Assembly (NCBI GenBank): GCA_002224055.1
Contig: AZLU01000011.1
Location: 1 to 64,000 of the forward strand
Length of the DNA: 64,000 nt
From: Pezizomycotina sp. ARF18
Lineage: Eukaryota; Ascomycota
Direction: 5' to 3'
How positions within the stretch are numbered: position 1 is the stretch's first letter; every line of letters begins with the position of its first letter. Below are positions 3,001 through 64,000 of this stretch, piece by piece. The translations under genes were made by a program, and so were the position numbers. The notes under the pieces are model-generated. The model saw only the letters and a program-made list of their open reading frames with translations, did no database searches and was not told the DNA's origin.

Positions 3001-6000
3001 AAAGAGCGTATTTATTAAGAGGAGTAAAAACTCTAATATTTATAAAGTTAGTTACTTTAATATTTCTTTATCTAAGTAAATAAACCGTCTCTCTATTTTT
3101 TTTTTTACTACCGACTAGTCTAATCAGTCTTTAGAATTTATAATTATTATACTCTAGCCTAAAAGTCTACTTTCTTTTTAATTCTTACGGCGAGATTATA
3201 CTTAGTATCTTATTACTTTTACTAGCTCCGTAGGTTTTTTTTTTCTTAAGTAGAAAGCTTCTACTATCCTTTACTATATTATTTTTTAAGAGTACGTTCC
3301 GCTATAATATAGCGCGTTTTATACTAGTTTTACTTAGCCTTAATCTTATAATCTTTTACGTATTAAGGTATTCTTTATCCGTTAATTATGCTTTTTATTT
3401 TTTTAACGTCTTAGACTCTTTATTAGTAGAATTAATATATTAATATCGACTTATACTTAAGAAGTATAATTATTAGATACTACTAATAAAAAGAAAAATA
3501 AAATATCTTATTAATATCTATTTAATATATTAATTAATTTTTTATTTTTTATTCTTATAAATATAATTTAAAAGCTATATTACTTTTGCTTAAAGTACTT
3601 ATTAATAAAAACTAAGAGTATTCTAAAGATAACGAAAGCTCTAATAAAAAATATAAGCGATTTATAAAGAGAAGAGATAAAATTCTAAAATTTATCGAAG
3701 TATTACTTATTATTAATTATAATATCGTAAAAAGTAATAAAAAGTAAAAAAGAAAAAAAGGAGAAAGAAGTAAAAATAATTAAATAAGTAAGAAGATAAT
3801 ATAATTAAAGGCTTATATTATAACTTTAAATTATTATAATAATCTCTTTTAATATATTTTAGTACTATATTTCGTTTAATTAGAATTACGTTTATTATTT
3901 TTATATATTACTTTATTATATTACCCTTTTAAGCTTTTCGCCTTACTCTATAAAAAGAGGTTCTAATATAAAAAAAAAAATATAAATAGATTTATTTTTA
4001 TCTTAAACGTACCTTTCCGCCTATCTTATTATAAATAGCTTTTTTTCTCGATTTATATTAGTTTATTTATTAGTTTTCTTTTATACGGAACTTATTATTT
4101 AATATAGGCTTTTTAAATAGGATTTTTTCTTTTTTCTTTTTTACTTATTAATAAATTAAATTTTTTTTTCTTATATTCTCTTATTTAATACTAAGATATA
4201 TATATAAGTTTTATATTTATTTTTAATAAATAGAATACTTATAGCTATAAAAACGTAAATAAATAACGTAGTAGAAGCTAATTTCTCGATATATAATCCT
4301 TTTATCGCGATATTACGATATTCGCTAAGTAATCTTAAGGTTTAATATAAATTAGGCGGTAGTAGCGATCTAGGCGTATTATAAGTATAACTTAATAAAT
4401 TCTTTTACTTTTTATTTAAATTTAAGATTTTTCCTATAGTTTATAGTTTACTAACTCTTTTACTAGATTAGATTAAATATAAATAAAAAAATCTTTTTAT
4501 TAATAGAATTATATAACTTACGTATTTTAAGTAAAATAGCTCGTTTAAAATATTTTAAATATCTTTAATAAATATGCTATTAATACGTATAAAGCTTTAA
4601 ACGGCTTTAATAAACTAGCGTATTTTCGCGATCTAAATAGCTCTTATAAATAGATCTCTATAAAGCTCTTAAATAGCTTTTAGAGAAGACCTTTTATAAT
4701 ATAATAATATAATATAGATATTTAGTATTTTTATTTTAAAGAGGATTTTATAGAATATTACTTTATTACGATAGAATTAATTAGATCTATTATAATTTCC
4801 TAGTTTATTAAATTTAATAACTTAGAGTATTTCTATCGTAATATTTAAACTTTAATATAAGTAAAATCTACTCTTAAAAAATTCTAAGGGCTTTAAAATC
4901 TCTAAAACTCTCTAAACCTCTCGGTTAGACTAATAAGATGTTTAATTTCTTAATAATTATACTATAATAAACTATATCTTAGCGGACGACTTAGTATTTA
5001 CGGAGGCCAAAATAGCTAATCCGTAGCTTTTACCGCGAGTTTAATAAATAGTAATTTTAGATCCTATAAAGATTATAGTATTTTTTAAATAATAATAGAT
5101 ATTCTTAAATAGGATATATCTAAGTTTACCGACTTTATTATATTTTAAAGTCTGGTAGCTCTTAACGCGCGGTTTAGAAGTACTATCGAGATAGCGCTCT
5201 TACCGTAGCTGAAACCGCCTAAATTAAAGAATTTCTTTAAGGTTTATTGAGGGATAGGAGTACTATAGGTTCTACGGAATAGTTAATTTTCTTATAGATA
5301 ATCTTGAGATATTAGCTAGAAAGTAACCCGCGGTTAAACGTCTATATAATCGAACTTTAGCGGTGGTAGATTAATGGAACTAGCTTACTTTAGAGGAACG
5401 GGAAGTATTTCTCTAGCGGTATAGGGCTATAGAATACCCTAGTTATATTTTATCGGGATTAGAAATAAGGGACTTTTATTTAAGACTAGAATATTAAAGT
5501 ATTAAGCTTTAAGGGATCTTTAGGTAGATATATAAGAGAGAGAATATAGTTAATCTTTAAAGAGGAGGAAATATTAGACTTAAATTTAATCTTTACTTAG
5601 GCGTAGTATTTTATAATAAAGAAGAGGAGAAAATTAAGTAGCTAATAAGGTAGATAGGTATTTTTAAGGAGAAGTAAGATTAGATTATTAAATAGTATAT
5701 ACGTAAGCTTTACCTTTTAATAACCGCAGAGTATATTTACTTTAAGCTAAATTTACTTAGTTTAGAGATTAGTATACCGATTAGAAGGTAGATATAGCGT
5801 ATCTTATATATATAGGTAGGTTTTATATAAAGAAAGAACCGCGGTTAAAGAGTAGTATAAATAGTAGGTACTATTAAAGGCCGCCGCGAAAAAGACTAAG
5901 AAGCCGAAGGGTACGAAACCGTCGAAGAAGGGTATAAAGCCGTTAAAACGGCCTAAAGATCTCTAAGAGCGGTGTCTTTAAGGTTAAGTACATAAAAAAA

Positions 6001-6764
6001 GAAAGTACGTTATACTCTTTAATATATAGAGTTTTCCTTTTTTTTATATTTAAAAAATATAAATTAGCTAATTTTATATCTTACTTATTTTTATTTTTAA
6101 AGTAAAGCGATTAGAGAGATTAAAAAGCTATAAAAGACTATAAATCTCTTAATTCTTAGAGAGCTAATATAAAGGCTAATTCGCGAAATAGGTTAAGAGG
6201 AGTATAAGGTTTATAATAATATATATTAGAACGCGGACTTTATAAGGAACCCTCGCTAGACGAAGGCCGCTTTAGATATAGTTTAGGAAGCCGCCGAGGT
6301 ATTTAATTATATAATATTTTAAAGGAGCTATATTAATAATAGTTTACGCGTATCGTTAGATATATATTATTAGATTTATAGAATTATCGGACTATTATAA
6401 GGCTCCGTAATCTAGACTTTTTATAGAAGCTTAACGATATAAAGAATAGGATTACGGGGAGGATTAGGCGCTAATAAGGTAATACTTTTATTTTAGAGGT
6501 TTTATAACTTTTAAGTATATAGTTTAAAATTTAAATTTATAATATATATACTATATATTAAAATAAGATAGTAGTAAAGTACTAATATAAAAAGTAAAAT
6601 AGCTTAGTAATATATCTAATAAATATTTATATAAAAGGAGCGGTATAAAAAGCTCTTTATATATCTAAAAATTATCTAAAAATTATAAGATCTCTTAAAA
6701 TATATTATAAAAAAGTTAAAAATATTCGATATGTTTATTTATTTTTTATATATAAAAAGGTCTT
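1..6764. repeat. AT-rich RIP-mutated repeat block, unidentified eroded elements
   Basis: Composition is extremely AT-rich on both strands. CpA and TpG are nearly absent while TpA is in large excess, the known signature of fungal repeat-induced point mutation. No open frame of useful length survives. A plus-strand stretch at about 5,300-5,990 and another at 6,100-6,480 keep some coding-like periodicity (lysine-rich end near 5,880-5,960), so they are probably former genes of repeats. I could not assign them to a family, and they may or may not belong to the Copia fossil downstream. Poly-pyrimidine (about 2,730-2,815) and poly-purine (about 3,720-3,780) tracts are also present. Confidence 0.85.
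1941..2572. repeat. Tandem repeat, about 178-188 bp unit, 3.3 copies
   Basis: Copies begin near 1,973, 2,161, 2,343 and 2,521, giving units of about 188, 182 and 178 bp. The last copy breaks off after about 50 bp. Each unit carries the same order of landmarks: a TATTTTTTATATTATAAATT-like stretch, AAGAAAATATTAATAAAGT, ATATAGGTCTAGTAA, GTTTAGAAACGTC and CTATCCTATATCTAGCTA. Copies differ by transitions and small indels, as expected of RIP acting on a local repeat. The function is unknown. It could be a subrepeat of an LTR or untranslated leader. Confidence 0.8.
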
Positions 6765-6891
6765 AGCGAGAATTCGCGTCGCGCTCTGGGACGGGCCAGT
6801 CGGCGCGGCGGGCTAACAAAAGTGGCACCGGGAACCCGGCGGGCCAACAAGAGGGTCCCCAAATCGTCCCGTCTGGCGCGAGATCGAACAC
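6765..6891. other. GC-rich island inside the RIP block
   Basis: About 125 bp with normal or high GC sits between AT-rich flanks. Unlike its surroundings it keeps several CpA dinucleotides (in AACAAAAG, GGCACC and CCAACAAG). It contains an imperfect direct repeat, GGCGGGCTAACAAAAGTGG (6,808-) and GGCGGGCCAACAAGAGGGT (6,838-), and the hairpin CCGGGAACCCGG. It has no open frame worth naming. It either entered after RIP or was too short or too unique to be recognised by RIP. Confidence 0.75.
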
Positions 6892-6899
6892 TAGATAAT

Positions 6900-9320
6900 A
6901 TTATTAAAAAATATATTTATAGGCCTAGAGGCTTATAATATTTATTAAGTCTAAGATTTTACTATTTATAAAGTATTAATCTATAGAGATATTTAGATTT
7001 TAATTAAATTAATCTTTAAAGTACGTAACTTTATAGAAGATAATAAAGATCTTTTAAGTATGTTAAAGATACCTTAGAATAGGTTTAGTCTAAGGATAAA
7101 ATAGTAACGGTGTTAAATTATAATTAAAACTTAATTTCTAATTATTAATTAAATATTTATAAGATAATTACGCTAGAATAGCCCGAGGATAAGAATAAAG
7201 ATCTTAATAACGCTAGTCTATAGCTAAGATTTAAAAATACTTACTCTTATAGAGGAAGTTATATAGATACTATAAGATAGATCTATAACAATTAACTAAA
7301 GATAATAGGCGTATTTTTAGAATTATTAAAGATAAGATCTAGTAGTTAAACTAAAAAGATACTTTATAGGCTAGGATACGTTAGTAAAGATCTAATAACT
7401 ATACGCCTTAGAGAAAAGTCTATAAAGAATTAATAGTATATATTAATAAACTAGAGCTATTTATCTATAAAGAGGCTATAAGCTCTATAAACTATAAAGG
7501 ATAGCGTATATTAATAGATTAAAAACTATCCTTAATTAAAGAATAAGATGTATAAACCTATAGATTTTAAGATCTTCTCCTAAAAGATAATATCGTTAAT
7601 AGTAAATAGATATTTAAATATAAACGCGATACTATTAGTCGGATTATAATACTTAAGTCGAGACTAGTCGCTCGAGGCTTTATATAAAAGTAAGGGATTA
7701 ATTATAATAAAATATACGTACCGGTAACTAAGATATTAATAGTAAGGCTATTCTTTATACTAGTAGCCTAGCTTAATCTTAAATATAAGTAGATAGATAT
7801 AATAACGGCCTTCTTCGTACCTAAACTAAAATAAAGAATTATTATTAGGCCTCTAAAAGAGAATAAAATTAATAGATTAGTTTAATTAATAAAGACTTTA
7901 TACGGCCTAAAATAATTATCTTAAAAATAGTATAAAGAACTTATCTTAGTTTTTAAATTATTAAAATTTAAAGTTTATCGGCTTAATAATAGTTTATTTA
8001 TTAATAAGGATCGTCGGCTAATAATAATTATCTACGTTAATAATCTATTAATAGCTAGATCTAATAAATATAAAGTTAAAATACTTAAGTAAGATCTTAG
8101 TTTATACTTTAAGATAAAGGATATAGGGCTAATAGTTTATTTCTTAAGTATATAGGTAGAATAATTAGGTTTAGAAATTAACGTCGCCTAGTATTATATT
8201 AGTCTATATATATATAATCGCTTTTAAGAGATTTAGGCTCGAGGATACTCTTAGAATTAATATTTTTATAAAAAGGGGAGGTATTCCTTAAATAGAGGAT
8301 TAAAATATATACTAGTAGTATAGTATCGATAGATAGTAGAAAGTTTAATCTATATTCTATTTATTAGGCTAATTGATACCTTTATTATCTCGATATTAGG
8401 GTAATACGTTAGCGAAGTAAACTAAACTTATAAGAAAGTAGTAAGAAGAATACTATAATATTAAGAAGGATTTCTTAATCGTATATTTACGTACTATATT
8501 TATAAGATAGAGGATAAGATACTAGATCTATATATCTACGTAGATACTAATTAGACTAGATATAAGCTTATTTATAGATCTATTATTAGCTACGTAGTAA
8601 CGTTTAATAGAATAGCTATCTTATATTATTTAAAAAAGTAATATATTATAGTTACTAGTAGTACTAAGGTAGAATATATAGCTATAGGAGAGGCTTTACG
8701 GGAAGCTCTCTAGGTACTTTAAATACTAAAGGATATATAGCGAGCCTTTAAGTTTAAGGCTCCTAATAGTATTAAATATATATAGATAATTAAAGTACTA
8801 TTAGTATTATAAAGGATCCTAAATACTATAGTAGAACTAAGTATATTAATATATAATATTACTTTATAAGGGAACTAGTTCGAGAAAGAACTATCGAGCC
8901 TCGATATATAAGATTAGAGGATAATATCGCGGATATACTTACTAAACCGCTTATAAAGATATCTTACGATAGCGCTATAAAGGCTATAGGTATAAGAAGA
9001 TAAGATAAAGATTATTAATATTATTAATAAGGGGAAGTGCTAGCTATTAGGTATACTAAAAAGGTATAATAAATCTATAGGTATCGAAGTAATACTTATA
9101 TAGCTAAAGAATAAGGAACTTTAGCTAGAGATATTAAGATCTTAGCTGTAGATATTAAGAAGATTACGACGATAAGGCTCTATGAGCCGTCGAGGTAGAC
9201 TATATATATTATATTAAGATTATAGTATTATCAGTTTATTATATATAGTATCGTATATTCCCTCAGTTAGTCTAGTTAGTTCTATAGTTAAATCTACAAG
9301 TTCGATCCCATCCTACATTA
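6900..9320 (+). mobile_element. Fossil Ty1/Copia LTR retrotransposon, 3' part
   Basis: The plus strand still shows the order of a Ty1/Copia pol gene: an integrase C-terminal linker at about 6,930-7,060, reverse transcriptase from about 7,450 to 8,300 (including the YVDD-type active-site region near 8,030), and RNase H at about 8,530-8,960. These are followed by a polypurine tract (AATAAGGGGAAG at 9,026-9,037) and a 3' LTR beginning TGCTAGC at 9,038. The LTR end near 9,310-9,320 is approximate. No matching 5' LTR was found, so the element is probably truncated on the left. It is a dead fossil with many dozens of breaks, mostly RIP-type transitions. It is old relative to the last RIP-active generation, and its age cannot be estimated without a sister LTR. 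Confidence 0.85.
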
Positions 9321-9654
9321 TTAGATATCATACCATACATCTGCGCCAGCAGGTACTGTTCAAATAACATAACCATTCCCTAATACCACTCCTTCACCAC
9401 CTGCCATATTTTCTATTGGATCAGGACTACCTAGGACCATTCTATCCCAAAGATTTGTGAATGGCAGTGACTGAGACATACAGCAAAGGCTGTTTTACAT
9501 CAGACGAAGAAATTCGTAATCGATACAATCCCCAGCGCGCAAATTTACTTTTCATCCTTCAATTAGCTCCTTGCTGATTATAACGACACCAAACAAGATC
9601 ATTCAACGAAACTTTACCTGCTTAGGTATTACAGGACTCCACCCAAAGTAGCAT

Positions 9655-21087: not shown

Positions 21088-21672
21088 ATGGACACTCTCC
21101 CGACCGAGATTCTCATCTCCATCTTTTCCTACCTCGAGGCTCCTCCTACTACGACCTGAAACTCAACCTCCCTGCCGTTTGCAGTCGTTTCCGCTCCGTC
21201 CTATCTTCCAACATAACACGTACCGGTGATCTAGATATCGCCCTCTTCCGCGACACCCCCGATGTATCAAGGCTTCCTTTCGCGACGAAGACGATTACAC
21301 CACCCATCCCGCTTTCGAAGTCCTAGACTATTTCTTCACCGGGAATCTCTCGGACGTTGTGTTCACGGGTCTCAACGGGAAACGTAACTGGAAACTAACG
21401 GACACTTCCGTCGCGGCTGAAAATGCTATTTCTCCGGCGGTAAACAAGATCCACCTCTTGTATAACAAAGCCTACGTCGACGAGATAGAGAATCCCGGAG
21501 GGGTTAAAGTTCTGGATGTCATAAACTCGGTCGTCGAGTTTTTCAACGATGCTGGGACGAAGTTTGGGGTTTTTACAAGTGGAGCGGCATGATTTACGTC
21601 GGCGTAGAATCCGGGGGAAAGGTTATCATGGTGCTCGGCTCATTCGAGAGGACTGAACCACCGGCTTATTAA
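21088..21672 (+). CDS. F-box protein, family A copy 2 (three frame slips)
   Basis: The likely role is a substrate adaptor for an SCF ubiquitin ligase. The F-box begins at the start codon (MDTLPTEILISIFSYL) and continues YYDLKLNLPAVCSRFRSVL in the next frame. After it come IALFRDTPD, the family mark HPAFEVLDYFF, DVVFTGLNGKRNWKLTDTS, ISPAVNKIHLLYN, and ENPGGVKVLDVINSVVEFF. It ends near 21,672 with IYVGVESGGKVIMVLGSF. The frame changes three times (near 21,142, 21,265 and 21,575), each time as if one base were missing, while the protein on both sides stays clean. It is probably an intact gene hidden by assembly deletions. Confidence 0.7.
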
Positions 21673-25530: not shown

Positions 25531-27290
25531 TTACCTTTCAATAAACCTCAAGTTGAACTCCTCCGGGCAGAGCGAAAAACGCTGCCTAGCCTCGACGATA
25601 CTCTTGCCCGTCTCTCCATCGGCAAAGGAAACATCGTACTGCAACAGTATCTTGGAGATGAGTGTGCGGGCGTTCATCAAAGCAAGCGAACGACCAATGC
25701 ACCCGTATGGACCTACGTAGTTCCGTCAGTAATTTCAGGATCAGTCTCCGATCTTTAAAAGAAGGGGGAACAAAAGATGCAACGTGGATTGAACACGTAC
25801 CGGCACCAAAGGCCCGAAGGCAGTCTTTTCTTTGACTCCATCTGATCCCGGATACCAACGTTCGGGAATGAATGCATTAGCGTTGGGGTAAATGTCCTCA
25901 GCTAAAGAGTTTACTTGATTAGTTAAAATATCTTCGGTTTATGTTTCCTAGAGAAAAGGAGGATCAAACTCAAAGTGAAATCGATACGCACTTTTACCGA
26001 TAGCACCTTGGGGACAAATAACCGTCGTGTTGCCGGGAACGAAAGTGTCACCAACATAAATACCTTCCGGAGGAGTAAGACGCGGCAAGTAACTAGGAAT
26101 CGGGGAATGAAGGCGGAGTGTCTCGTTGATCACAGCATTGAGGTGCTCCATACGCTGCAATTCCTGATGGGAGACCTGACCAGTTTTATCGACACATTTG
26201 AGCAATTCCTCGTAAATTTTAGCTCTATGTTCGGGATGACAGGCAAGCTCGTAGAAGATGCTGGTGAGTGCGCCGGATGTAGTATCACTATCGAGTTTGT
26301 CAGCCTCTTCTAATCGTACCTCCAATAGTGACTGTCGGATGTTGGCACTTGTAGGATCTTACCTTCCCGCAATGATGACCGTCAGCGGATCTAATTGAAG
26401 TTGACGTTCCTGTTCCGGGGTGGGTTAACTTTTTGTACGGTTCCAGGAGCGTGCTCATAATATCGGGGACATCCGGGGTGATCTATCGTATCATGATGTC
26501 AGTAACTCGGTTGTGATATTCCATCATGTTTGTTCAGAAGGAATGGGATTCCCTACCTTTCTCCTCTCGCCCAGCTGCTCACCGCAATAATCCTGGAACC
26601 CCCACCAGTCTTTGGCCAACCCGGGATGGCGTTGAACGTCCTCAAAAACCACGGAGGGAACATGTGCCCAGTAGCCGCAAACCCGTTGTGGAAAAGCTTA
26701 ATGGCCCAGTGTTTTTCGCTAGACGCAGCATATTGAAGGACTTCGCGAAGGCGAGGTCACCCATGATGTCGTAGGTGTACAGGTTGAACCACGTGGTGAC
26801 GTTGACCTTGTCCTTATTTCCAGCGATATGAGCCAGCAGCTTATCCTGATAAACAATCATCCTCTCTCCGTACCCCGGAGCGCTTTTTCGCTGAAGGCCG
26901 CACTCTAGATTCTTCGGCGCTTGGCGTGGAAAGCTTGGTCTCTCGTGGTGCTGAGGGAAGTGGAAGGGAGAAGATCGTAGAAAAGACCCTTTCTGCACTT
27001 GGAACCGTGGCCGTAGATGATATTGTACGCCTTGGGGTGGATTATCGACGAATCGTTGGAGCCAATGCGGACAAATTCGCCGTATTTCGCGTGGAGGTTT
27101 TCGATGTGCTTATATGCCATCTTGTCACGTACGTGATAGGGGAACCAGAGGCTGCTAACCTTTGCACCAAAAGCGCCGGGGAACTTTTTAAAGGACTGAG
27201 GAAGATACGCCACATGAGGAGAGACGCATAGAGGCTAATAAGATACAGGATGAAAGCCGCAAGTGTTTCTTTAAATGCAGAAGTGAACGA
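25531..27290 (-). CDS. Cytochrome P450 monooxygenase (frame broken here)
   Basis: This is a heme-thiolate monooxygenase of the ER membrane, probably in secondary metabolism or detoxification. The parts in order are: an N-terminal membrane anchor (FILYLISLYASLLMWRIFL, about 27,240-27,180) and the hinge PLKKFPGAFG; GEFVRIGSNDSSIIHP and KAYNIIYGHGSKCRKG; YDIMGDLAFAKSFNML (C-D helices). The I helix is DSDTTSGALTSIFYEL, followed by the K-helix ETLR motif (INETLRLHSP, near 26,130) and PERWYPGSDG. The heme loop is FGAGPYGCIGRSLA, split by an intron of about 80 nt at 25,717-25,797. The end FNLRFIER precedes TAA at 25,531. No start ATG was found, and several frame slips (one just before the heme loop) each need one base. 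A RIP-damaged sister lies 1.2 kb away. Confidence 0.8.
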
Positions 27291-31123: not shown

Positions 31124-31919
31124 ATGGCCCGTTCTACTCTCTCTTCCTCCGCATCCTCCTCTAAACTCCCTCAACAGACTTGGTTCGAACAAATCACCGA
31201 AGAAAGCCCTGAAAAAACCCTTGAAAAAGTCCTCCAAGAGGGCCCTGACGTCAACGCGTCAGGACAACTCGTCGAAAGCGCTTCTCCGAAGCCTGAATTC
31301 CCACCGCCATGTTCGAAAGCGCGTCCCCGGAGCCTAACTTAACCACTAGCATCTTCGAAAGCGCGTCCCTGAGCCTCGAATTCCCCACCGCCATGTACGA
31401 AGAGCTCCGCCGCGGCTTCCGGTGCAGCGCGAACGCCCAGCGCAAAGACGTCGCGTACGATCAGCTCAAACTCATCAAGGACGTCCTTTCGAAAGCCGAA
31501 GCCGAAGCAGATGAAAACATGCGCGTGCAGAACATCATATCCGAACTTATCGAGGAGCACAAAGAGAAGCTCCGTGAAGCTGCTGCAAACAAGGACGCTT
31601 CTGCGTTTACGGAAATCAAGGAAACCATCTCGAAGCTAGAAGAAGAGCTGAACGGGTTCAAGCTGAGGGCGCTCGGTTACGGGGAAAAGCTGGGGGAATA
31701 CTACGACAAGGTCGATGATTTGAGAGGACGGCGTGGGAGTTTGCGGGTACGAACATGATGAAGGAAGTGGAAGATCCGCCCCCGAGGGTGATGGGCCCGC
31801 CGAAGAAACCTGCTCAGAGGAGGACGATCCAGAAGAAGATTCTTCCGAAGAGGATCACCTTTAAGCTTACTAGGCCGCCGGTTTCGAAATCAACGGCTGT
31901 CCAAGAACCAGGAGAATGA
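31124..31919 (+). CDS. Unidentified coiled-coil protein with a three-copy 14-residue repeat
   Basis: Starts at ATG 31,124 with a Ser-rich head and a WFEQITEESPEKTLEKVLQ helix. Three tandem 42-bp/14-residue repeats follow: ESASPKPEFP-AMF, ESASPEPNLTTSIF and ESASLSLE-FPTAMY (31,273-31,396). A long coiled coil comes next (EEHKEKLREAAANKDASAF, ISKLEEELNGFKLRALGYG) and a basic, proline-rich tail ending VQEPGE before TGA at 31,917. Repeat 1 is 41 bp where repeats 2 and 3 are 42: it has CCCA where repeat 3 has CCCCA, and this one base alone causes the frameshift. A second one-base slip lies near 31,732. The family is unknown and the fold is mostly helical. Confidence 0.6.
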
Positions 31920-35425: not shown

Positions 35426-37048
35426 ATGGAAACGCCACCCGCCGAAGCCAAGAGCCAGTATGGCTACGCTTCCGATGACGATGCACAGGCTGCTGCGTCG
35501 CCGCCGCGGCCCGCGCCAAAATCGGGTTAGATCCGGCCAAGGAAGCGAAACTGCTACGGAAGTTAGATCTTCATGTACGTTAATATTCCATATTTTATTG
35601 CTTTTTATAAACAAAGGCAGAGAGTTGTGTAATGGAACAGAATAACAATTTCGGCAGTTGTGTTTTCGCGATGAGACTTTGTTCCTCGCTAATATGAGAT
35701 TTCTTGCAGATCATTCCTCTCGTCATGTTTCTCTACTGCTGTTCCTTCCTCGACAGAGTAAATATCGGTAACGCTCGTCTTTTTGGCCTGGAAAAGAATT
35801 GAAGATGAAGGGCAACGACTATCAGATGGCTGTTTCCATCCTCTTCGTCACATACCTTACCTTCGAGGTCCCGTCCAACCTGGTGCTTAAGAAGTTTACG
35901 CCGTCGCGGTGGATCGCCTTCATCGCGGTCTCATGGGGTATTGTAGCAACGCTCGTCGGCCTCGTCCAATCATTCGGAGGTCTTATCGCCGTCCGTCTCG
36001 TCCTCGGCGTATTCGAAGCCGGATTATTCCCCGGAATAACGATGTACCTCACCTTCTTTTACACACGAAAGGAGCTTGCTCTTCGCTTCTCGTTCTTTTT
36101 CACATCCGCCGCCATCGCCGGTGCCTTCGGCGGTTTACTTGCCTACGGAATCGCGCACATGGACGGCCTGCAGGGCATGCGCGCCTGGCGCTGGATCTTC
36201 ATCATCGAAGGAATGCCGACCGTCATCGCCGGTGTTCTCGCGTACTTCTTCCTCGCTGATTCGCCCGAAACCGCGTACTACCTGACCGAAGAGGAACGCG
36301 AGCTCGTGTGCCTCCGCCTCCGCTTCCAGCACGGTGACGTCGAAACCAACGAGGAATTTCGCAAGGAGACTCCAAAGCCGCCCTCAAGGACTGGAAGGTT
36401 TGGCTCACGGGTATCCTGCAGTTCGGTTTCTTTTCCATGCTGTACGGCTACTCCGTCTTCCTCCCCACCATCATCAAGGGTCTGGGCAAGTGGTCTGCGA
36501 CGGAGATCCAAGGCCTTACCGTCCCCTGCTATGCCTCGGCGCCATCACGTACATCACCGTCAGCTTCTTATCCGATAAATATCAATTGCGAGGCGTGCCG
36601 ACTGTAATCTTCGCGTCCGTATCATGCATCGGATACATTATCCTCCTCTCTCCCGCACCGCACGCGGCACACTACTTCGGCTGCTTCCTCGTCGCTATGG
36701 GATTGTACGTCGCCGCCGGCATCCCGGTCTCGTGGAACAGCCAGAACTACCGCGCTACGGCAAGAGGACCACCGCGAGTGGTATTCAAATTGCTTTGGCG
36801 AACTCTTCTGGTATCGCCGCGCCGTTCTTCTACCCCACGAATGGAGCCCCGAGGTTCATCATGGACACGCCACTACGCTGTCGCTTGTTCTGTTCGCAGC
36901 GACGGGTTACGGCCTCTTGAGTCTGTATTATAAAAATGAGAACAAGAAGAGGGACGAAGGACTGAGGGATCATCTGATCGCTGGAAAGACGAGGAAGGAG
37001 ATCGAGGAGATGGGAGACGATTCGCCGACCTATAGATATGTTTACTAA
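35426..37048 (+). CDS. MFS transporter, Dal5/anion:cation symporter type (six frame slips)
   Basis: A plasma-membrane transporter of the ACS family (allantoate, vitamin or organic-anion permeases); the substrate cannot be told. Start ATG 35,426 precedes a cytosolic head (PPAEAKSQYGYASDDD) and DPAKEAKLLRKLDLH. A 135-nt intron follows (35,575-35,709, GTACGT..TGCAG), then IPLVMFLYCCSFLDRVNIGN, the family helix 1 with its DRxNIGNA motif. Next are VSILFVTYLTFEVPSNLVLK, GVFEAGLFPGITMYLTFFY, AWRWIFIIEGMPTVIAG, GFFSMLYGYSVFLPTII, ITYITVSFLSDKYQ, SGIQIALANSSGIAAPFF and a tail ending at TAA 37,048. All expected helices are present and in order. Slips lie near 35,520, 35,790, 36,367, 36,533, 36,752 and 36,862. 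Each is repaired in reading by one extra base in a short run (AAAA, TT, GG, CC, G, GG), with no nonsense change. Confidence 0.85.
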
Positions 37049-39589: not shown

Positions 39590-40555
39590 TGCGATTCTTT
39601 CCTCGTAGTACAAGATCGCATGAATCCCGCTAAATTCGTTCCTATGACTATAGTCCCACAGGATTTCGGTGTATATCAAAAGGATTGGCTGGGGCATTGC
39701 AATGGCTGGAGTCCAACAGATATCCGTTGAAAGATTTATCCGGATAATAAAACGCCTCTCTTTTACTGAGTTTTAGCGCCCCATATTAAATTTGGTAGAT
39801 GATAGCATCTATTCACTAGATTTAGAATACATTTTTGCTAGGGGTTGATATGTTCAGAAGTAGCCCAAGTTTACGGACATAGTCGGAGCGATTCTCATGG
39901 AAATAATACTAATTACCTCACAAGCAAATAAAAAGGCTAAGCCTCCCGGGGAACCCGGAACGCTGGATGGCAAATGGGTTTGATTCTTTCGAATATCAAC
40001 CATAGTATTCTTGCAATTGACTATCATTTTGAATCTGTTTATGCGTCCTCGGTCCCTAAATTAGAAGATATAGCCCCGGCTATAGCCTACGTATCATTTA
40101 GGATCTGCATCTTCATGTGCGCTTCCAACGAGGCAGACCGTCGCCTAAGGGCGACAAGTTATGATGCCTTGATTGGCCTTAGGTTTCCAGCAATTTTGGC
40201 GTAAAAAAAGACACCAACTATCGTGGCCCCACCCGAGGAATCAACCTATACCGACTGCGACTCAGTTGAGCTTCCTGGACTGCATGGTAGCCAACGCTAA
40301 AATCCCCAAGCGATGTTTTCGCTGGAACTACATGCCCCCGGGGGGATTACGACTAGATAGAAAGGATAAGCTGATTCTGGGCGATTGCACTTGCCCGAAT
40401 CCGGTTTTGGATCGATATTCAACCGGGTGCGCTGAAAGTGTATGGCTTCCCCGGAGCGGTGGGTTGTCATTACTCAATTCCGGCACACCGTTCATACACG
40501 ATACAGAAGCAAACTTTCAGAAGTGGGTCAAGGCAATAAAATCACGGTAAGGAAA
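39590..40555 (+). other. Weak coding signal, unidentified
   Basis: Two plus-strand pieces look protein-like: FLVVQDRMNPAKFVPMTIVP with GVYQKDWLGHCNGWSPTDIR (39,600-39,727), and CFRWNYMPPGGLRLDRKDKL with TGCAESVWLPRSGGLSL (40,310-40,490). They lie in different frames with about 600 bp of poor coding sequence between them. They may be exons of one gene or unrelated fragments. The second overlaps the first codons of the frame starting at 40,442 and cannot code together with it. Confidence 0.25.
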
Positions 40556-41482
40556 ACCCAGCTCCCGGGGTGGGCACCGGAGATTTACTACAATGAATGC
40601 TCGGCAACCCTATCCGCTATCCATTCATGGTCAACACAAGTTTCTCTTGCCAGGCGTCTTCATGAATGTTTTATGGATATCACAGCCTGGATTCTGTTAC
40701 CTTTCAGTGCAACCGCAAGCACAAGAGCCGTTCGTTTATGGAATGCCGTTTTTTTTTTGGGGGCTTTTTCTAGAAGCGTGAACTTTAATCACACGGCGAT
40801 ACTCACTTCTATCGTAAGATACCAGCTTTCTTCTCTCCATTTCCCGAATTTGTCAGCTGCCAAGCTACACACCTCAGACCTTGAAAGGATATCAACTTTC
40901 TGGAATTCTGAATACTCAGCTAGTTGTAAAGAAACGGAGCGATACCTGACAAGTCTCAAAGAAATCTATATCAGCTCCAACGATGCTTTTGGCGATGCGC
41001 AGAAGGGTTCGACAAGATTTCAGACCATGAGCATTTTGGAACTGTGGTTAAATCGTTTCGAGAATTTAAAGAAGCTTGAAATCCATCAATCGGGACTAGA
41101 TGCCGCCTTCGGGTTACGCATCTTACAAATCTTTGCGTCTCGAGAACTGGGCTTCGATTATATACGCTTCAAGGATAACTTGTCCGGCTTCATCCGGGAA
41201 CAGGAAAAGCTTCGTCAGCTTACTATTACCCGGTTTTCAATCTCTCCAGATTGCGATGATACATGGGGGAATGTTTTCGAAGTTTGTGTCGGTCTGCGAT
41301 ATTTAATCTCGGTTCAATTTAAAGGATTATATTACGTCGGCGGACACGATATGGCGAGCCATGTGATCTGTACGCCCCACGAAGCGGACAAGGAAAGTCT
41401 GTCCCAGATGATTGAGAAATTTCAAGGAATTGTTGATCCGAGGCTGTGTTGGTCATTCAGTGTCTGTACAAATCGTCGTTGA
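40442..41482 (+). CDS. F-box/LRR-type protein, family B copy 1
   Basis: This is the longest uninterrupted frame in the window (346 codons). The first in-frame ATG is 40,442, but family similarity begins only near 40,750, so the true start may be a later ATG or an upstream exon, and no F-box is visible. From there: TSIVRYQLSSLHFPNLSAAK (FPxL segment), a leucine-rich repeat region (FENLKKLEIHQSGLD, EKLRQLTITRFSISPD), and the family signature DDTWGNVFEVC, then LYYVGGHD and ICTPHEADKESLSQM, ending at TGA 41,482. Such proteins select substrates for ubiquitination through the repeats. As drawn it has no Skp1-binding part. Confidence 0.65.
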   Translation: MASPERWVVITQFRHTVHTRYRSKLSEVGQGNKITVRKTQLPGWAPEIYYNECSATLSAIHSWSTQVSLARRLHECFMDITAWILLPFSATASTRAVRLWNAVFFLGAFSRSVNFNHTAILTSIVRYQLSSLHFPNLSAAKLHTSDLERISTFWNSEYSASCKETERYLTSLKEIYISSNDAFGDAQKGSTRFQTMSILELWLNRFENLKKLEIHQSGLDAAFGLRILQIFASRELGFDYIRFKDNLSGFIREQEKLRQLTITRFSISPDCDDTWGNVFEVCVGLRYLISVQFKGLYYVGGHDMASHVICTPHEADKESLSQMIEKFQGIVDPRLCWSFSVCTNRR

Positions 41483-42837
41483 TCTTTCTGAGCATATATC
41501 GTTTGCTCTTACTGATTGCTTTACTACACTAGTCATGTAATCATTTCCGGTAAATTCCTAGTATTTAATCTTTTTTTCTCGTTCTGCTAACCGATAAAAC
41601 CTCCGGTAGAAGAAATCTGTCCTGGAGAATTCGTACAGAGAAAGATGCTAAATTATAAACTGGCATGTTAATTCTCAATAACAAATACAGCTGTCTTATT
41701 AGAACCAAGAGAATTGGCGAAGGGTACGAGTAGCGGCCGCTAATGAGAATTTTACCATGCTACAATGTATAAACAGGAAATTTAGTGGCAGAACGATTCA
41801 CACCCTTTTACCTTGAGATACGGCTCGTGCTAAAGAGTCCGGGGGAAACAAGCAATAGAGGTACGCAGAGGCTTGCTGAGCCTGGATTAGTAAAGGAGGT
41901 AAAAATATATACCATTTAATTTGATCTATCAAGGCGTCTTTTACAATATTATGATGGTCATGCAGTTGGCAGATGTGGCACCGATTTGCAGGATGGTTCG
42001 CATCTCAGAAACAAAACGGGCTTCGACGACGGTTAAATTAGCCATTAAATTAGCGAAAGATGAAGTGCGGAACTATCTCGCAGGTCCAATCGGTCTTTTA
42101 AAAGTCCGATCGCAAAACATTGCTTTAATCATCACATTTACGAGCTTCGCTTTCTAGCCAAAATCCTTTAGATTTATATTTATAAGTTGGAGTGGACGTC
42201 TTGATACCTTCCTAAATGGTTTCGCGTTTCCACGCTCCGGAGACAAAAAAAGCTATTTCTGTTCTGCGAAAGAAATGTTCCTTCGCTCAATAAAATACGA
42301 AAATAATAAGGTACTGGGGCTTCCGTTGTACAAATCGTGTGATGTGTCAATATTACCAGAAACAAGTGCCATAAAATTTGTTTTACCGACCGCGACCGCG
42401 ACCAGTCATAGATTGCAATCGATTGTTGAGCTCTTCATTGCGAACGGATTAAGCTCCGTTCGTTGAAAATGGATGAGGGAAATATCTAGGAGTAGTCACT
42501 ATGTGTCTCGATTACTCCTTCGACTGGGTCTTCTGAATTATTTCACAGTCATCTCGTCGCAATTTATGCCAAAGGATTGCTTCAATCCGATAACAAAAGC
42601 CCTCGCCCCACAACGTGTGAGACCTTTCGCCGTCGATATCGGCTTATAGACTCACTCAGACCACACAGACAGCGATAACCCCGGTACGCAAGGCTGAACA
42701 TGATGCGTAATCCTTTCTAACGAGATGCAAACCAAGACTATAAATAAAGCTGTTTTTCTTGGGTTATAACTAGTTGCCTAGTTTAAAGCTCCTTACGCTC
42801 TTTGCTATAAGTTCCCATATTTTTTAATCCAACAAAT
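41483..42837. other. Intergenic, 1.3 kb, promoter of the secreted-protein gene
   Basis: No gene was recognised. A 78-codon frame at 41,921-42,157 has no context. TATAAATA-like sequence at 42,741-42,747 lies about 95 bp before the start codon of the secreted protein. Confidence 0.4.
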
Positions 42838-48865: not shown

Positions 48866-50381
48866 TCACTCGACCCACGAAGTAAGAAGATCTAATACTT
48901 CGAGCGATGGGAAATCATCATTGCTCAGAGCAGAAGTATAATTCTCCTCCCAATCTTCCTCTTCTACCTCGAACTGCCCAGAATGAACCGGACACACGAT
49001 CCAAGGCGGATTTTGAGAGAACCACGCGCGCATGATTTCGCGCGAATATAACCCTGCTTAAATTCGTGAAAACTGTCGCAATCTTCCGATATGTCGTACA
49101 CAGCGTCCCATAATCGCACCACGCTTCACGACCATCGGAGTATCCGAGATGCGGATCGAGACGTCTTGCAGGAGCGGGAGATTTCCGAGCGCTTTGAAAA
49201 TTTCCGCCCACGTATCCTTCTCGTGAAGTATCAGCACTGCGGTGAGATGAATTTTCTGCAAGACTGTGAAATTTGATAGAGCCTCGGAGAAACCATTATG
49301 AATTTGTGCAATTGTTATAGTAAGAGTCCGAAGTGTACTGAGCGTATTGAATGTCGAGAAGTACATGTACGTCTGCATTTGATTAAGAGGAAACTCGTCG
49401 TATGAAGACAGCCTCTTTAGGGAGAGGGTTTTCAGCGGCAGACGACTTAAGAAACCCTCGAAGTCACGAAGCTTGTGGGCTTATGTTGCGGCCCCCTGGA
49501 ATCCACGATGCCGTTCGAAGACTGAGGCCGAGATATTTGTAGCCGTAGATTTCGTCTAAAAGCGAGAAATCGTGAACTCGCGAGAGGTTCTGGAAGAGAA
49601 GATCGTTCGTGTCTGTCCAGAAGGGCTTTGCGATGCCTAAAGAGTCGACGCCAAAGCCAAGTGCCCTAAGACTGGGAAAATTGACAGCTGAAAGAATGTC
49701 TGCGAGGACCCAGAAGAAAATCTCTCCATGTTCGACTGGAACAGATGTCGTGACAATCACTGAAAGCGAGCGTAATGTCGGCGCACACGATGTCAAGATT
49801 TGGTAGAGATACGGATAAATTTGTTTCATCCGTGAAGGAAAGGGTGGCGCCTCTGTTCGATCTAACAATTGTTCTGAGGGTTGAGGACCCGGAATATCCA
49901 AGTTGCTTAGAGGTTCCGTAAGAACAGTCTCGAGAAGGTCGTCCAAGTTCTCCAGTCTCCTCCGAAACATGAATCGTCCGTCTTCCCGCCTCCTTACCGA
50001 TTCAATTTGCCGGATATCCCGCTTGACCTCGTAAAGCGCGATCTTTAGCGACCGAACGTGTTTGCCATATGAGACTGTCCGAGTATAGCAGCTTCTTCCC
50101 GAAGTAGTCGAGGAATAGCGTCGATAGTTAGTGACTCGAAGCGCTTCGACCTGGCAAACTTGCAAAACAGACGGCTGGTTCGAGAAAACGTGTATAGCAA
50201 ATCGGCGTTCGTATTTCGGCATTCACGGCGGGGCTTCACGCTGGTGCAAAGTTTCCATGCCTGCTCGGCAATCTACGCAACCAAAAAGCTCCGTCAGTTT
50301 CCCAGTAACGAAAGGGATAGAGAATCGGAAGTGGCGACTTACCTGCTCTAAGAGCTCGTTTGGCAGATAAGGTACTGTCAT
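48866..50381 (-). CDS. F-box/LRR protein, family B copy 4, nearly complete
   Basis: Start ATG 50,381: MTVPYLPNELLEQ, a 70-nt phase-0 intron (50,273-50,342, GTAAGT..GCGTAG), then IAEQAWKLCTSVKPRRE, LLYTFSRTSRLFCKFARSKR, FESLTIDAIPRLLREEAAIL, RSLKIALYEVKRDIRQIES and a 252-codon block. That block has the repeats LTSCAPTLRSLSVIVTTSV, NFPSLRALGFGVDSLGIAKP and LLFQNLSRVHDF. Next: LRDFEGFLSRLPLKTLSLKR, LSTLRTLTITIAQIHNGF, the signature DTWAEIFKALGNLPL, LGYSDGREAW, YGTLCTTYR. An acidic tail (FEVEEEDWEENYTSALSND) ends at TGA 48,866. Four or so one-base slips, no nonsense change. This is the best model for the family: about 490 residues, F-box at the N-terminus, LRRs, then the signature. Confidence 0.75.
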
Positions 50382-52375: not shown

Positions 52376-53786
52376 CTCCCTGCAGAGATATTACTGCACG
52401 TGAGTATAATGCTAATGACTACGATGGCATACCATTTTATATATTATTTACCTGGAAAATATAGTCTCAGGTACGGAATCGCTAACGTGACATTTGATTT
52501 CCAGATAGGCAAAGAATGCGTTCTCGAGGCGGAAGCACGCGACGCAGGAGATGGATTGGGAGATGAGCGTATCTTGTGGACACTCTATAAGGTGAATAGG
52601 CTTTTCTGCGACTTCGCAAGGTCGAAGCTTTTCGGCCATCAACTTTTGCATGTGGAGCCCTGAATTCTGCATTCGGCCGCAGATATTTTGAGTCAGCGCC
52701 ACATTGCGAGATATATTACGTCTGTATGCCTGCGCCTCGACTTTCGGGACTGCTCGAGGGGATTGCGAGAATCGACGGGGTTTCGAAGCTCTTCGATCGG
52801 GACATTCGCACTATGAAAGGAACAGTTCCGATTCTAATGCCAATAAGCGAGGTATATTTCCGACCATTGAAAAACTTTTCCTCTTTGGAAAATCCATCAG
52901 ATTCCGAGGCTAATCGAGGTCGTGGTGGAAGCAGATATGACCGTCTCGGACTGGCTTTCTCTAGTTTCAATCAGCCTTACGAGAATTCTAACAGTCATCC
53001 AGCTGGGATTAAGCTGCTTGGAATTCGACATGGCGGCATCCGGCGATTTAGAAACGTGCTACGATATTCACAACATCGCCGTCGGGATCCTCTGTTCGTT
53101 GCGCTTCCCGCGGCTGAGATCCTTGAGGCTTAATACGGAAAGTGTGGGTATGGTTGCGCCGTTCCGGAACCACTCGATGCGACTTTGACCCTCCATCAAA
53201 ATCTTGCTAGTCTAGATACTTTCATCCTAGGACCCGGACTAGAAAACCCAGATCACGATGCAGAAGAACTCCGCTCATTTGAGATGTGGCTCGGAGGTTT
53301 AACCGGTTTGCGGAGGTTAGAACTGAACGCGCTCGAGACTAGAGGCTATCAGGATAAAGCTTCGTTCCTTGCCCTCCCACTCGAAGCCTGTAGCCAGCTC
53401 CAGCAATTGAAACTGAAGGATCTTTCGGTTGCGGATAAAATTTCGACGGTACTTCTGGCAATGAAAACACTACAGAATTTAACGCTTCATAACTGCGCCA
53501 TAGACCGAGAAGTTGATACCTGGCGTGATGTTCTTTTAGCGTGCCTTCCGCTGCAAACCCTCCGGCTAGCAGGGTTGTCTTATTATGTCATAAACTGGTT
53601 CCAAGGCTCGCGCTGCTCAAAATCAACTCTTTGCACGGATTACGAGGACGACAAAGAGACGTTTGGGAAGTAGGAGAAAGGTTGATATTAAGCGGGGTAA
53701 TAGACGAAGATTGTGCGAAGTTCTGGAGTTATGTGACGACGTCCATCCTTAGGACGCCGACGAGTCCCGATCTGACTTGTCAATAG
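52376..53786 (+). CDS. F-box/LRR protein, family B copy 6 (frame broken here)
   Basis: Exon 1 ends LPAEILLH at a GTGAGT donor (52,400); the intron runs to 52,504 (TTCCAG). No ATG stands before LPAEI in frame, so the start is uncertain. Exon 2: IGKECVLEAEARD, RILWTLYKVNRLFCDFARSK, LHVEP with TGA (52,661-52,663), then ILHSAADILSQRHIARYITS. Next: WLSLVSISLTRILTVIQLGL, GILCSLRFPRLRSLRLNTES, LHQNLASLDTFILGPGLENP, LTGLRRLELNALETRG, SQLQQLKLKDLSVADKISTV and the signature DTWRDVLLACLPLQTL, CSKSTLCTDYEDDKETF. A tail ends at 53,786. It is divergent from copy 5, with 370 bp between the two. Confidence 0.65.
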
Positions 53787-59719: not shown

Positions 59720-60718
59720 TTAATCTTTGTAAAACACCAAAGTTCTAACCTCAATACTCTGCTGCCTTTCTCCCCCTCGGGTGTATCCGGGTCGAGGAAC
59801 GCTGTATGAGGTGTACACATTGCAATCCCCTCCTTTCCTCCCGGTAGTTCTTGTCCCCATGAATCAAAACATTTGATAAACATCGTCTCGTCGGGTCGCA
59901 TACCCTTGACGTAAAAGAACTTATGCCTGTCGTTAGCTTGAACGCCGTACGTCTCTCCCTTGGCAAAGTATCCTTCCGTGGAATGCTTATCCACCTTCAA
60001 CGGTAGGGCTTCTTTTCCGCGGTCGTCGTCACCGTGGTTGTGAACCCCGTTAGATTTAGCGGCGGGTGCAACTGTGGGGCGGGTGTATCCATGTGGGTAG
60101 AGCAGATCCACCGGCACGAAATCGGTCTTGCTTGTGCTGCGCCAGTCTACGACGGCGAGCGGGAAATCAACTGCAGGATACCCGATGGGCCGCCAGACAT
60201 TGATAATTTGATACCTAACTCCGCTCTTAAGTAGTTCTTCCGCTTCTTCTTCCGGTAAATGACGGCGAACTCTGTTCTCGGCAGCTTGTGGGTCTGGTCG
60301 ACATGTACGAGCTGCACCGGCTGTCGGGGACTATCTGGCCGCCGTCGGCGGATTGTGTGGTCGAATATGACAACTTTGGCGACGTTGTCCAGCTTATCTT
60401 TCAAAAGAGCCTCGATTTCGTCGTAGTACGGCCCGCGCACCTTCCGTCATCCGCATTGAAGAAGTCATCGGCTTCTAGTGTTGTCGGCCAACTATGAACT
60501 GAGAAGCCGACATTGTCGGTTGTGTATGAGGAGATATTCGGTCTAATGTCAGTTACGGTTCGGGGGTGCTCGGTCACTTCGTAGGAAACACCGCCACCGT
60601 CGACTTTGCTCCATGGCTTAGCGGAGACAGCCTTGGGGTTGTCGGCGCCGAAGGAAGCAGGGTCAATGTGCCGAAATATACCGGTGGTCGTTACCGTTTC
60701 AGTCGCTGCAGGCGCCAT
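59720..60718 (-). CDS. CmcJ/AsaB-like hydroxylase/desaturase family protein (frame broken here)
   Basis: Member of the fungal family typed by CmcJ-like and AsaB-like enzymes (hydroxylase/desaturase, often in secondary-metabolite clusters; iron/2-oxoglutarate chemistry is reported for relatives). Start ATG 60,718 (MAPAATETVTTTG, then a DIRPNISSYTTDNVGFSVHS segment). Family blocks follow: YYDEIEALLKDKLDNVAKVV, IFDHTIRRRRPDSPRQPVQ, VHVDQT (near 60,300), VRRHLPEEEAEELL, IINVWRPIGYPAVDFPLAVV, VPVDLLYP. Last come DRHKFFYVKGMRPDETMFIK, CFDSWG, CTPHTAFLDPDTPEG and the end SIEVRTLVFYKD at TAA 59,720. Histidines in DHT, HVDQ and TPHTAF are the family's conserved ones. About four one-base slips, no nonsense change. 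Confidence 0.8.
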
Positions 60719-61610
60719 TCTAAACACCAGTTTAGGTTACGTTGTACAAATGAGAATTGCTTAATGGAAAACTGCTGAAGAAATTCCAGAGAGCGTGATA
60801 GTACCAGTTAACACTTTCAATTATCGATAAATTACTGGAATCTGTGAGGTTCAATCGCCACATTTTTATACCGCGGATCGAATTTGTAATGATGCTCGGT
60901 TATCCCGGAACTCCTCCGCAAATTGACTTCGCGAATCTTGAAGTTTACGCTCCATCATCTGATTGCGTGCTCGCACCTGATGCTTCCGCTGACAAAAGAA
61001 GTCAAGTTTCGCGATACCTAGGATTATGACGACAGCCTGAGTGGAAGCAGACTCTGTTATGAAGCATTGAATCCTACTTGCGTCGATGGACGGTATTTCT
61101 CCGAGTCTAAGGTTAACTTGCTTCCTATGTTGCTATACGATCGACCTCGTGTAAAAGCCAGTAGGAGGACGAGGGTTACTAATTGGATATAGTTTTCGCA
61201 GTTTCTGCTTCGCAGTCTGACAAAGCAAAAACCGCAAAGTACCAATCTCTCTATCTCCTTCACAAATACTGCTTATCAACCCCGGCAACAATACTCCGCG
61301 CCGTCGGCGGAAGTGTGAATCCATCGCGTATTCTCATTCGTTATACTATACTCCTTTCCCAATCTCTCTCTCTTTCCTTTCCTTCATATTAGAAGGGCCT
61401 TGTTATCGATAAAGTTTAATTACAGCCTATTATTTGTTTTGTATGATCGCCAATACAGAACCAACGTTGAGTCATCGGCCATGGGTGGGACGCGTGGACG
61501 CGTCCACACGTGTGTCCCCCCTCCTTCGACCACATTTCAAAGCTCTTGGCGAGAAGAGTTTCAAGAGTTCAACAAATGATATCCAAATTATAACCCAGTA
61601 AACTGCAAGA
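60719..61610. other. Intergenic between oxygenase and family B copy 7
   Basis: No gene was recognised. It serves as divergent promoter space for the oxygenase (minus) and the F-box gene (plus). The only standout is the palindrome at 61,487-61,518. Confidence 0.4.
61487..61518. promoter_or_regulatory. Palindromic cluster with two ACGCGT boxes and a CACGTG box
   Basis: A perfect 14-base palindrome GTGGACGCGTCCAC (61,494-61,507) is flanked by GGGACGC on the left and ACGTGTGTCCC on the right, so most of 32 bases can pair. It contains ACGCGT twice (the MluI cell-cycle box bound by Mbp1-type factors) and CACGTG once (E-box for bHLH factors). It lies about 93 bp before the start codon of the F-box gene at 61,611. 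Its function as a binding site is inferred from those known motifs. Confidence 0.45.
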
Positions 61611-62964
61611 ATGACGATACCAGTGTTACCAAGGGAGGTTCTGATAGAGGTAAGCTAGTTTGAATCAAGAATAAATTATAGCCGTCCAACTTACGCGAAA
61701 TTCTCTATCGACTGTTAGATAACATCTCACTTCATAAAGACGAAAAAAGTCGGAGGAAAGGAAGCCTTCCACCATCGCGATGGGGACAGACCTTGCGTGC
61801 TTTGCATGGCACCTGTCGCTTTCTCCGCGACTTTACACGCCCTCATATCTTCGGAGAATTAATGCTATCCATGCAACCCGATCTCCTCCAGAAAGACGCG
61901 GATTTTCTAACAACAGGTCACGTAGCCCCGTACGTTGAAGTCTGAGCTTCATCATATCTCATGAATCCAGGCGATTATCAGCGGAGTTGACAGGCGAACG
62001 AGACCTGGGGCTTTCCAAAGTTCAATGGAAGTGGAGGTATAAATTGCCCAAAAATTTCATCATTCCAAGTCAAACTGATGGCTCACGTTATCGCAGGGAA
62101 TTGCTCCACGACTGGCATATTGTCGAAATTGCGATACAACTCACGCGTATATTTAGTGTCTGTGCGCCCCGCTTGCGTACATTGGAAATCGTCAACGCGA
62201 CGAATTTCGTAGACTTCGATTCTTCTATTCGTCTATATATATGTGCAATTTCTTTAAGAGCATCCTCCGTATGCTTTCAACATTCCGGCTCCCGCGTCTA
62301 GATGAATTGTATCTCTCCACTCCGGATATCGGAGATGTCGGTGCCTTCTGCGATCCATCAGAATACGACCGTATGGAGGGAAGCTGTTGAAGGAGAATAT
62401 GAATCGTTTGCGAAAAGTCGTCTTCAGCTCGACTGCGTACTCGGTAGGGGGACGCTGTGTGTTCTTCCCACTCATCAATACAGTAATTTTCTCGGCTTTC
62501 AGCACTGGGTCACGACTTTACCGCTCCTTGAAGAACTAGAGTTGGAAGACATCGGGCGGCGTGAGAGAAGTACCTTCGTAACATCTTGGGGCTGTGCGCT
62601 TCCACTCAGGCCACTGCGCGGCCTTGGTAAGCTACGGAGCCTGTCGCTGACGGAAACAGAGGTCGCCGACAGCCTTTCAGTGCTGTTACAGGACCTTAAA
62701 TCGTTGAAAAAGCTCAAACTCGTTACGTGCGCCATTCTCTATTCACGCGATGACTCGTGGGGAGAGGTATTCGACGCCTGCGCGAATTTGCCACTAGATA
62801 ACGTGGAGATGTCACGTCTTATGTATGTTAACAACAAAAAGCTGAAGAAGGACTTGCGTAATGGGAAAGATATATGCCGATCAGATCGCACGGCTTTTAA
62901 TAATATGCTCGAGAGCTTCAGAGAAAAATGCGTAAAGTGGACTGGGATTGATCAAGGGGAATGA
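61611..62964 (+). CDS. F-box/LRR protein, family B copy 7, nearly complete
   Basis: Start ATG 61,611: MTIPVLPREVLIE, then a 69-nt phase-0 intron (61,650-61,718) at the same place as in copy 4. Exon 2: ITSHFIKTKKVGGKEA, then RALHGTCRFLRDFTRPHIFG and LLQKDADFLTTGHVAP. A possible 41-nt intron (61,930-61,970, GTACGT..CCAG) leads in frame to RLSAELTGERDLGLSKVQWK. LRR part: FSVCAPRLRTLEIVNATNF, SILRMLSTFRLPRLDELYL, ENMNRLRKVVFSSTAYSV, TTLPLLEELELEDIGRRE, LGKLRSLSLTETEVADSL, LKSLKKLKLVTCAILYS. The signature DDSWGEVFDACANLPLDNVE leads to a C-terminus whose usual CxLC cysteines are replaced (GKDICRSDRTAFNNM). Stop at 62,964. Three or four one-base slips. Confidence 0.75.
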
Positions 62965-63673
62965 ACGCAACGATCGTCACCATTATTGGGGACGACAAGC
63001 CTCAAAGTCGGCCGTCTTTAAGAGTCTTGTGAGGCACTCTTTATTTGATCTCTTAGTCTTACAAAAATGTCCAGCATCATCGTGTAGTATATCATACAGA
63101 ATAGGTGTTTTCTTCCATCTTTATTCGACCTTCAGCTTGATATTACTGCTTATGCTTGAACGACGCGCGAAACTGAAAGCTTCAAAAGCATACATGTTTT
63201 TGACGGATTCCAAGATACCAGTAGACGAAAGAGGGCCTATGTCTAAACCACTGACAAAGCGGAAGAAGCGATAATACAACTGTAGCATATTGCCCTACAG
63301 AAGTAAACGGGCTCCGTATAATAAGGAATAAGAAATAATTGGCACACACAATTTTTGTATCGTTTCGAATGTTTTTTTTATCTACTGAAACTATGATCCC
63401 GCTAACCTCCGAAGTCGCCACTAACAGTTCGTTTCTGCTGAAACTGGGGTTCTCCAGATGCCTAAGCATTACCAAGGCAAGACCAAAGTTAAAAGCAAGG
63501 CTCGGCGGCGTTCAAATAGGCGAGTTCCAAGAAACGACCGTTCCTGTAACCCCACTATATAACGCATTGCAAACCCTGAGATTGTCCGCGACGATTGGCT
63601 TGAGAAAATGTCCGATATTAAGCTTTTGCATCTACTCTGATATTGGAGAGCAGGTAAGAGGGTGGGAGTAAAG
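62965..63673. other. Spacer between two convergent family B copies
   Basis: No gene recognised. The frame at 63,339-63,671 starts with a run of unlikely residues and overlaps nothing known. Confidence 0.35.
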
Positions 63674-64000
63674 TTAAGCCAAAGCCTTGCAAGTACTCCA
63701 GTTAACAAATGCTGAACTCAGCCCACGTGAAGCCAAATACTCCCGCAAGTTGTCGAAAGCAATAACATCCTGTTTCGTTTCCGGACAAATAGTTCGCCTG
63801 CATCGTTCGTGTGCCTCATGAATCCCATCCATGTAATAGAGCGAACTGAGAGAGATGGAAGTGAGAGGGAGCTCAATCATAACTTCAAAAACGTTGCTCC
63901 ACCGATCATCACTAATTGAGAGTCGACAGTTTGACAGCTGAATAGACTGCAAAAGTTTGAGATCCTTGAATAGAAGGGATAGTTGATCAACCTGCGCGTC
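63674..64000 (-). CDS. F-box/LRR protein, family B copy 8, C-terminal part, runs off the window
   Basis: The minus strand from the window edge encodes QLSLLFKDLKLLQSIQLSNC (last LRR), then the signature DDRWSNVFEVMIELPLTSIS, LYYMDGIHEAHERCRRTICP and DVIAFDNLREYLASRGLSSA, ending WSTCKALA at 63,674. It is continuous, without slips, over the visible 109 codons. The F-box and most repeats lie beyond 64,000. It is convergent with copy 7, their ends 710 bp apart. Confidence 0.7.
   Translation of the reverse strand, partial: DAQVDQLSLLFKDLKLLQSIQLSNCRLSISDDRWSNVFEVMIELPLTSISLSSLYYMDGIHEAHERCRRTICPETKQDVIAFDNLREYLASRGLSSAFVNWSTCKALA

Follow-up and report, generated by a model that had tools for sequence, protein, structure and literature searches.

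The window, a stretch of 64,000 nucleotides, is almost certainly the start of contig 11 of the public low-coverage PacBio/Canu draft of ARF18, a nematode-parasitic fungus of the Orbiliaceae (PMC5571426). It holds a gene for an MFS transporter of the allantoate-permease-like kind, whose coding frame is broken repeatedly in the sequence as given (Table 1). With the stretches of this gene taken in order as the query, 2,663 proteins matched at E ≤ 0.001 among 7,998 candidates scored. Among the 120 matches listed, the homologues are 51–64% identical and come mostly from ascomycetes, several of them being named allantoate permease or nicotinic acid transporter-like. The family PF07690 (MFS_1) matches the largest stretch of the gene (35,775–36,365, E 6.6e-22).

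Table 1. Genes of the window and the intron of the MFS gene, with the basis on which each was placed.
Feature	Position	Strand	Basis
Cytochrome P450 gene, in several frames	25531..27234	-	ORF list; PF00067 on 25,951–26,358, E 2.5e-22
MFS transporter gene, allantoate-permease-like kind, two exons	35426..37048	+	Translation, homologues, alignment to three relatives, PF07690
Intron of the MFS gene, ends approximate	35575..35712	+	GT-AG; same place with three references
Gene earlier labelled oxygenase, in several frames	59720..60736	-	ORF list

The first part of the window (1–9300) is an AT-rich block of 22–25% GC with marks of repeat-induced point mutation (RIP). The TpA/ApT ratio in the block is 1.44–1.50 versus 0.85 in the rest of the window, and (CpA+TpG)/(ApC+GpT) is 0.06–0.08 versus about 1.09. 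The edge of the block is sharp, near 9.3 kb, and outside it the base composition is normal. A GC-rich island (6781–6890, 68% GC) without RIP marks lies within the block. Distant copies of one protein family, 25–37% identical to one another, are spread over both strands at 41,000–41,500, 49,100–49,400, 53,200–53,600 and 62,300–64,000. The stretches 40,436–41,479 and 49,467–50,222 gave no Pfam match, and no tRNA genes or Rfam families were found in the 64-kb window.

In a three-frame translation read by eye, the coding frame of the MFS gene consists of seven stretches split by six steps in a single direction (0>2>1>0>2>1>0), near 35.5, 35.79, 36.37, 36.53, 36.75 and 36.86 kb. The frame alone cannot distinguish one-base losses from two-base gains, and the distinction was drawn from alignment to homologues. 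Three intact relatives from the 120 listed homologues served as references for a frameshift-aware alignment in which GT-AG introns were allowed and a missing base and an extra base were charged equally. Each reference gave the same result: five one-base losses, no gains and no two-base events, with no in-frame stop over 453–462 codons. Four of the five loss sites fall on identical bases with all three references, and the remaining site is shifted by 3 bases with one of them. The sixth step, near 35.5 kb, lies beyond the aligned part and is read from the translation only. The first-pass annotation had described six one-way frame changes with no nonsense change between them. Both statements hold, five of the changes being anchored as one-base losses, the sixth being seen in translation, and the freedom from stops applying to the conserved part that was aligned. 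By itself, a one-way set of five or six lesions is suggestive rather than decisive.

The same direction had also been claimed for the P450 gene and for the putative oxygenase gene. Three steps in the direction of the MFS gene are seen in each, where the ORFs were joined by eye and the frames followed by hand without a homologue as anchor. To that extent the claim stands; the oxygenase label itself found no backing, as the two stretches of that gene that were scanned match no Pfam family at E ≤ 0.01. The further claim for the F-box copies at 21,088 and 22,585, the repeat gene at 31,124 and family B is unconfirmed. Their relatives within the window share just 25–40% identity, too little to reveal the direction of loss, and four alignments among them (three distinct pairs) contain no events in either direction.

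If the losses are errors of the assembly, they must also turn up in genes whose death the fungus could not survive. The genes for Prp8, the CCT chaperonin and Hsp70 are essential. A control set was accordingly made of seven genes on seven other contigs, namely Prp8, CCT3, CCT4, CCT6, mitochondrial Hsp70, cytosolic Hsp70 and BiP. Across the contigs of the genome, PF00118 matches at 8 places on 7 contigs and PF00012 on 7 contigs, in both cases as strings of pieces; PROCN of Prp8 occurs at one genome place only, and the pieces of Prp8 are about 90% identical to Prp8 of Orbilia and related species, which places the fungus among the orbiliomycetes. The aligned sample comprises three of the eight CCT-like places and three of the seven contigs with Hsp70-like matches, the others being left out. 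Nearly all of Prp8 was aligned, to two Orbilia sequences, and CCT3 was likewise aligned to two references. For CCT4, CCT6 and the three Hsp70 genes, parts were aligned, with chains of solved structures as references. No tRNA was found in the 19 genome loci examined.

All seven genes carry the losses. Prp8 has 22 one-base losses, 1 two-base loss and 1 gain, and the counts are the same with both references. BiP has 12 one-base losses and 1 two-base loss, mitochondrial Hsp70 5 and 1, and CCT3 3 and 1 with one reference; against its second reference, CCT3 additionally shows a single in-frame stop and a further two-base loss next to an intron. One-base losses alone were found in CCT4 (6), cytosolic Hsp70 (5) and CCT6 (2). 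Pooled with one reference per gene, the seven genes show 55 one-base and 4 two-base losses versus a single gain, and no in-frame stop in 14,520 coding nucleotides. The count of insertions against deletions that had been proposed as a check therefore gives 59 losses among 60 events in these genes (sign test, 1e-16), next to five losses and no gains in the MFS gene.

The density of these events is 4.1 per kb, or about one base left out per 240. It is uneven between genes, ranging from 2.4 to 12.0 per kb (dispersion p 0.008). The MFS gene is ordinary in this respect, with 5 events seen versus 5.7 expected from the other genes. BiP, near 203 kb on the contig labelled C3, stands at the upper end with 12.0 losses per kb, about three times the density of the other genes; a stretch of low read depth is perhaps responsible. 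The possibility that the aligner favours one direction was addressed with eight artificial pieces of another ascomycete's Prp8, into which 40 losses and 40 gains were planted. The aligner recovered 36 of the losses and 34 of the gains, along with a single two-base gain. Since planted losses and gains are recovered about equally, the aligner is not the source of the asymmetry.

A second line of evidence comes from contig C50. The positions of its tRNAs recur about 215.4 kb apart (pairs picked by eye), all 8 matches to the NADH dehydrogenase family PF00361 lie on it, and the second copy extends to the end of the contig at 231,088 bp. On these grounds C50 is taken as a self-overlapping contig of a circular mitochondrial genome, probably of about 215 kb and with many tRNA matches. 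Such a size is large for a fungal mitochondrial genome. An alignment of the two copies over about 2.7 kb shows 8 mismatches and 75 gap events, of which 68 involve a single base; 53 of the gap events belong to the copy at the contig end and 22 to the inner copy. The differences extend to tRNA genes. ARAGORN reports a tRNA-Ile (gat) in the inner copy only, within the shared stretch, and the two versions of the tca-anticodon tRNA are 71 and 70 nt long. In principle, the two copies could instead be a real near-identical repeat, but the divergence of real repeats is rarely made up almost only of indels. Different indels are what an assembly artefact yields when one stretch is assembled twice independently, and the two copies of C50 behave in this way. 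It counts against an artefact of low depth that this contig end is rich in errors, though a mitochondrial contig should have high depth.

The sequencing record is of a kind in which such errors are expected. The ARF18 draft was made from 142,598 PacBio reads with a mean of 7,686 bp, which by our own arithmetic amounts to about 24x, and was assembled with Canu 1.1 following the low-coverage instructions and then scaffolded with AHA; the paper mentions no polishing step (PMC5571426). The published draft comprises 46,639,970 bp in 412 scaffolds, with an N50 of 177 kb, an L50 of 76 and a GC content of 44.6% (PMC5571426). The genome examined here has 46,361,250 bp in 408 contigs, and so differs slightly from the published totals, by 279 kb and four sequences. 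Its contigs 75, 76 and 77 measure 179,233, 177,964 and 173,450 bp, so that contig 76 agrees with the published N50 and L50. A passage of the Canu paper describes the consensus accuracy attainable from low-coverage data as limited and recommends polishing (PMC5411767).

Whether the missing bases come from homopolymers is a separate question, since uncorrected undercalling of such runs had been put forward as the cause. Of the 64 bases missing at the contig end of C50, 55 belong to runs of at least two, compared with 58% of all bases. In positions 9,501–64,000 of the window there are 144 A/T runs of 5 bases and 31 of 6 bases, versus 161.5 and 54.3 expected under a third-order Markov model, whereas A/T runs of 9–15 bases number 13 versus 3.4 expected. 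A published account describes long-read errors as mostly short indels tied to homopolymers (PMC12007338). Together, the runs at the mitochondrial end, the scarcity of A/T runs of 5–6 and that account make a preference for short runs likely. Around the 60 nuclear sites the longest run has a mean length of 2.42, versus 2.36 in the background. This measure has low power, and in a simulation it could not tell losses spread evenly over all bases from losses that favour runs. The observations are likely best fitted by a mild preference for short runs, with no sign of systematic truncation of long ones. The undercalling claim is thus likely for short runs, where missing bases at the C50 end accumulate, and finds no support in the long A/T runs, which are still present.

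An artefact of the nanopore kind, in which long homopolymers are truncated, would draw on the same preference for runs of two or more at the C50 end and on the same deficit of A/T runs of 5–6. Nevertheless, A/T runs of 9–15 bases exceed expectation, runs near the nuclear sites resemble the background, so far as that measure of little power can tell, and the published record is one of PacBio sequencing, if the assembly is the same. We consider truncation of this kind very unlikely.

Alternatively, the MFS gene and its neighbours could be dead by natural pseudogenisation. In favour of this, their frames are interrupted many times in the sequence as it stands, and the window starts with a block apparently destroyed by repeat-induced point mutation. 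However, base composition is normal outside that block, the MFS gene has no in-frame stop, all five of its anchored lesions point one way, and lesions occur at the same density in genes that a fungus cannot lose. The lesions in housekeeping genes and the lack of stops lead us to reject pseudogenisation, to which we attach hardly any probability. The MFS gene was also considered as a pseudogene in its own right, for which nonsense changes and a mixture of insertions and deletions are expected; 0 stops, 5 losses and 0 gains were found, and the candidate was set aside. Beneath the artefact, some of the fast-evolving genes in the window, such as the F-box and LRR-like ones, may nonetheless be truly dead.

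A further idea is that the sequence is correct and that frequent −1 ribosomal slips carry translation through most genes of the fungus, among them Prp8 and the chaperonins. In its favour, a lost base and a −1 slip are alike in frame, and nearly all steps go that way. Its probability is practically nil, because the motif is absent (1 of the 60 sites has a slippery XXXYYYZ heptamer within 10 nt, versus 3.2% of background positions, and no 4-mer is enriched at the sites after 241 tests) and the two mitochondrial copies disagree, also in tRNA genes, which are untranslated, while the listed Orbilia Prp8 proteins, as predicted by others, are full length.

We therefore hold with great confidence that the frame changes in the MFS gene are not mutations but consensus errors of a low-coverage PacBio/Canu assembly that was probably left unpolished. 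The direction and density of the losses, their presence in housekeeping genes, the disagreement between the two copies of C50 and the fit to the published draft form the observed base of this reading. Most of the lesions are one-way losses of a single base, in the MFS gene and in the seven housekeeping genes alike, and they are genome-wide, reaching essential genes on all seven of the other contigs sampled. At about 24x PacBio depth and with the low-coverage settings of Canu, the consensus would leave bases out, and coding sequence would come out short of about four bases per kb. A consensus that drops bases at low depth would account both for the losses in coding sequence and for nearly every gene being broken in the draft yet intact in the living fungus. 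The missing polishing would then be the cause of the losses, and in the fungus itself the genes are most likely whole. The suspicion of an assembly artefact rather than gene death, with which the analysis began, is borne out by the similar one-way losses in housekeeping genes, the differing C50 copies and the PacBio/Canu record, in which no polishing is mentioned. Most likely, the one-way losses are an ordinary sequencing artefact of a known kind.

The consequences reach beyond the MFS gene. The published annotation gives 14,461 genes with a mean length of 1,028 bp (PMC5571426), and a later paper repeats the gene count, in the available part of its text without comment on quality (PMC8015330). 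With 4.1 events per kb in coding sequence, these gene models are not to be trusted, and the warning that a gene count from this assembly would be unreliable is upheld. By a simple Poisson estimate at this density, about one coding sequence of 1.5 kb in every 500 would be free of frame errors. To infer gene loss or gene-family decay from the ARF18 draft is premature before polishing. It is feasible to apply the same quick test to other windows, by inspecting Prp8, CCT and Hsp70 of the same assembly before a gene is declared dead.

The window gene shares PF07690 and an identity of 51–64% with fungal allantoate-permease-like MFS transporters, which we take, partly from the names of the hits, to belong to the ACS family. 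It differs from them in that its frame is broken in the assembly, and its putative link to allantoate is drawn from the names of its database hits. As to the errors themselves, polishing tools report their edits as bases added to the draft. In the Nile tilapia paper, Quiver and Pilon made 92.95% and 98.68% insertions, respectively, when a Canu assembly of 44x PacBio data was polished (PMC5414186); we read these insertions as bases added to the draft, although the wording allows the opposite reading. So read, the tilapia draft before polishing, with 93–99% insertions, resembles ARF18 with its 59 losses among 60 events. The two differ in that read depth is lower in ARF18, about 24x versus 44x.
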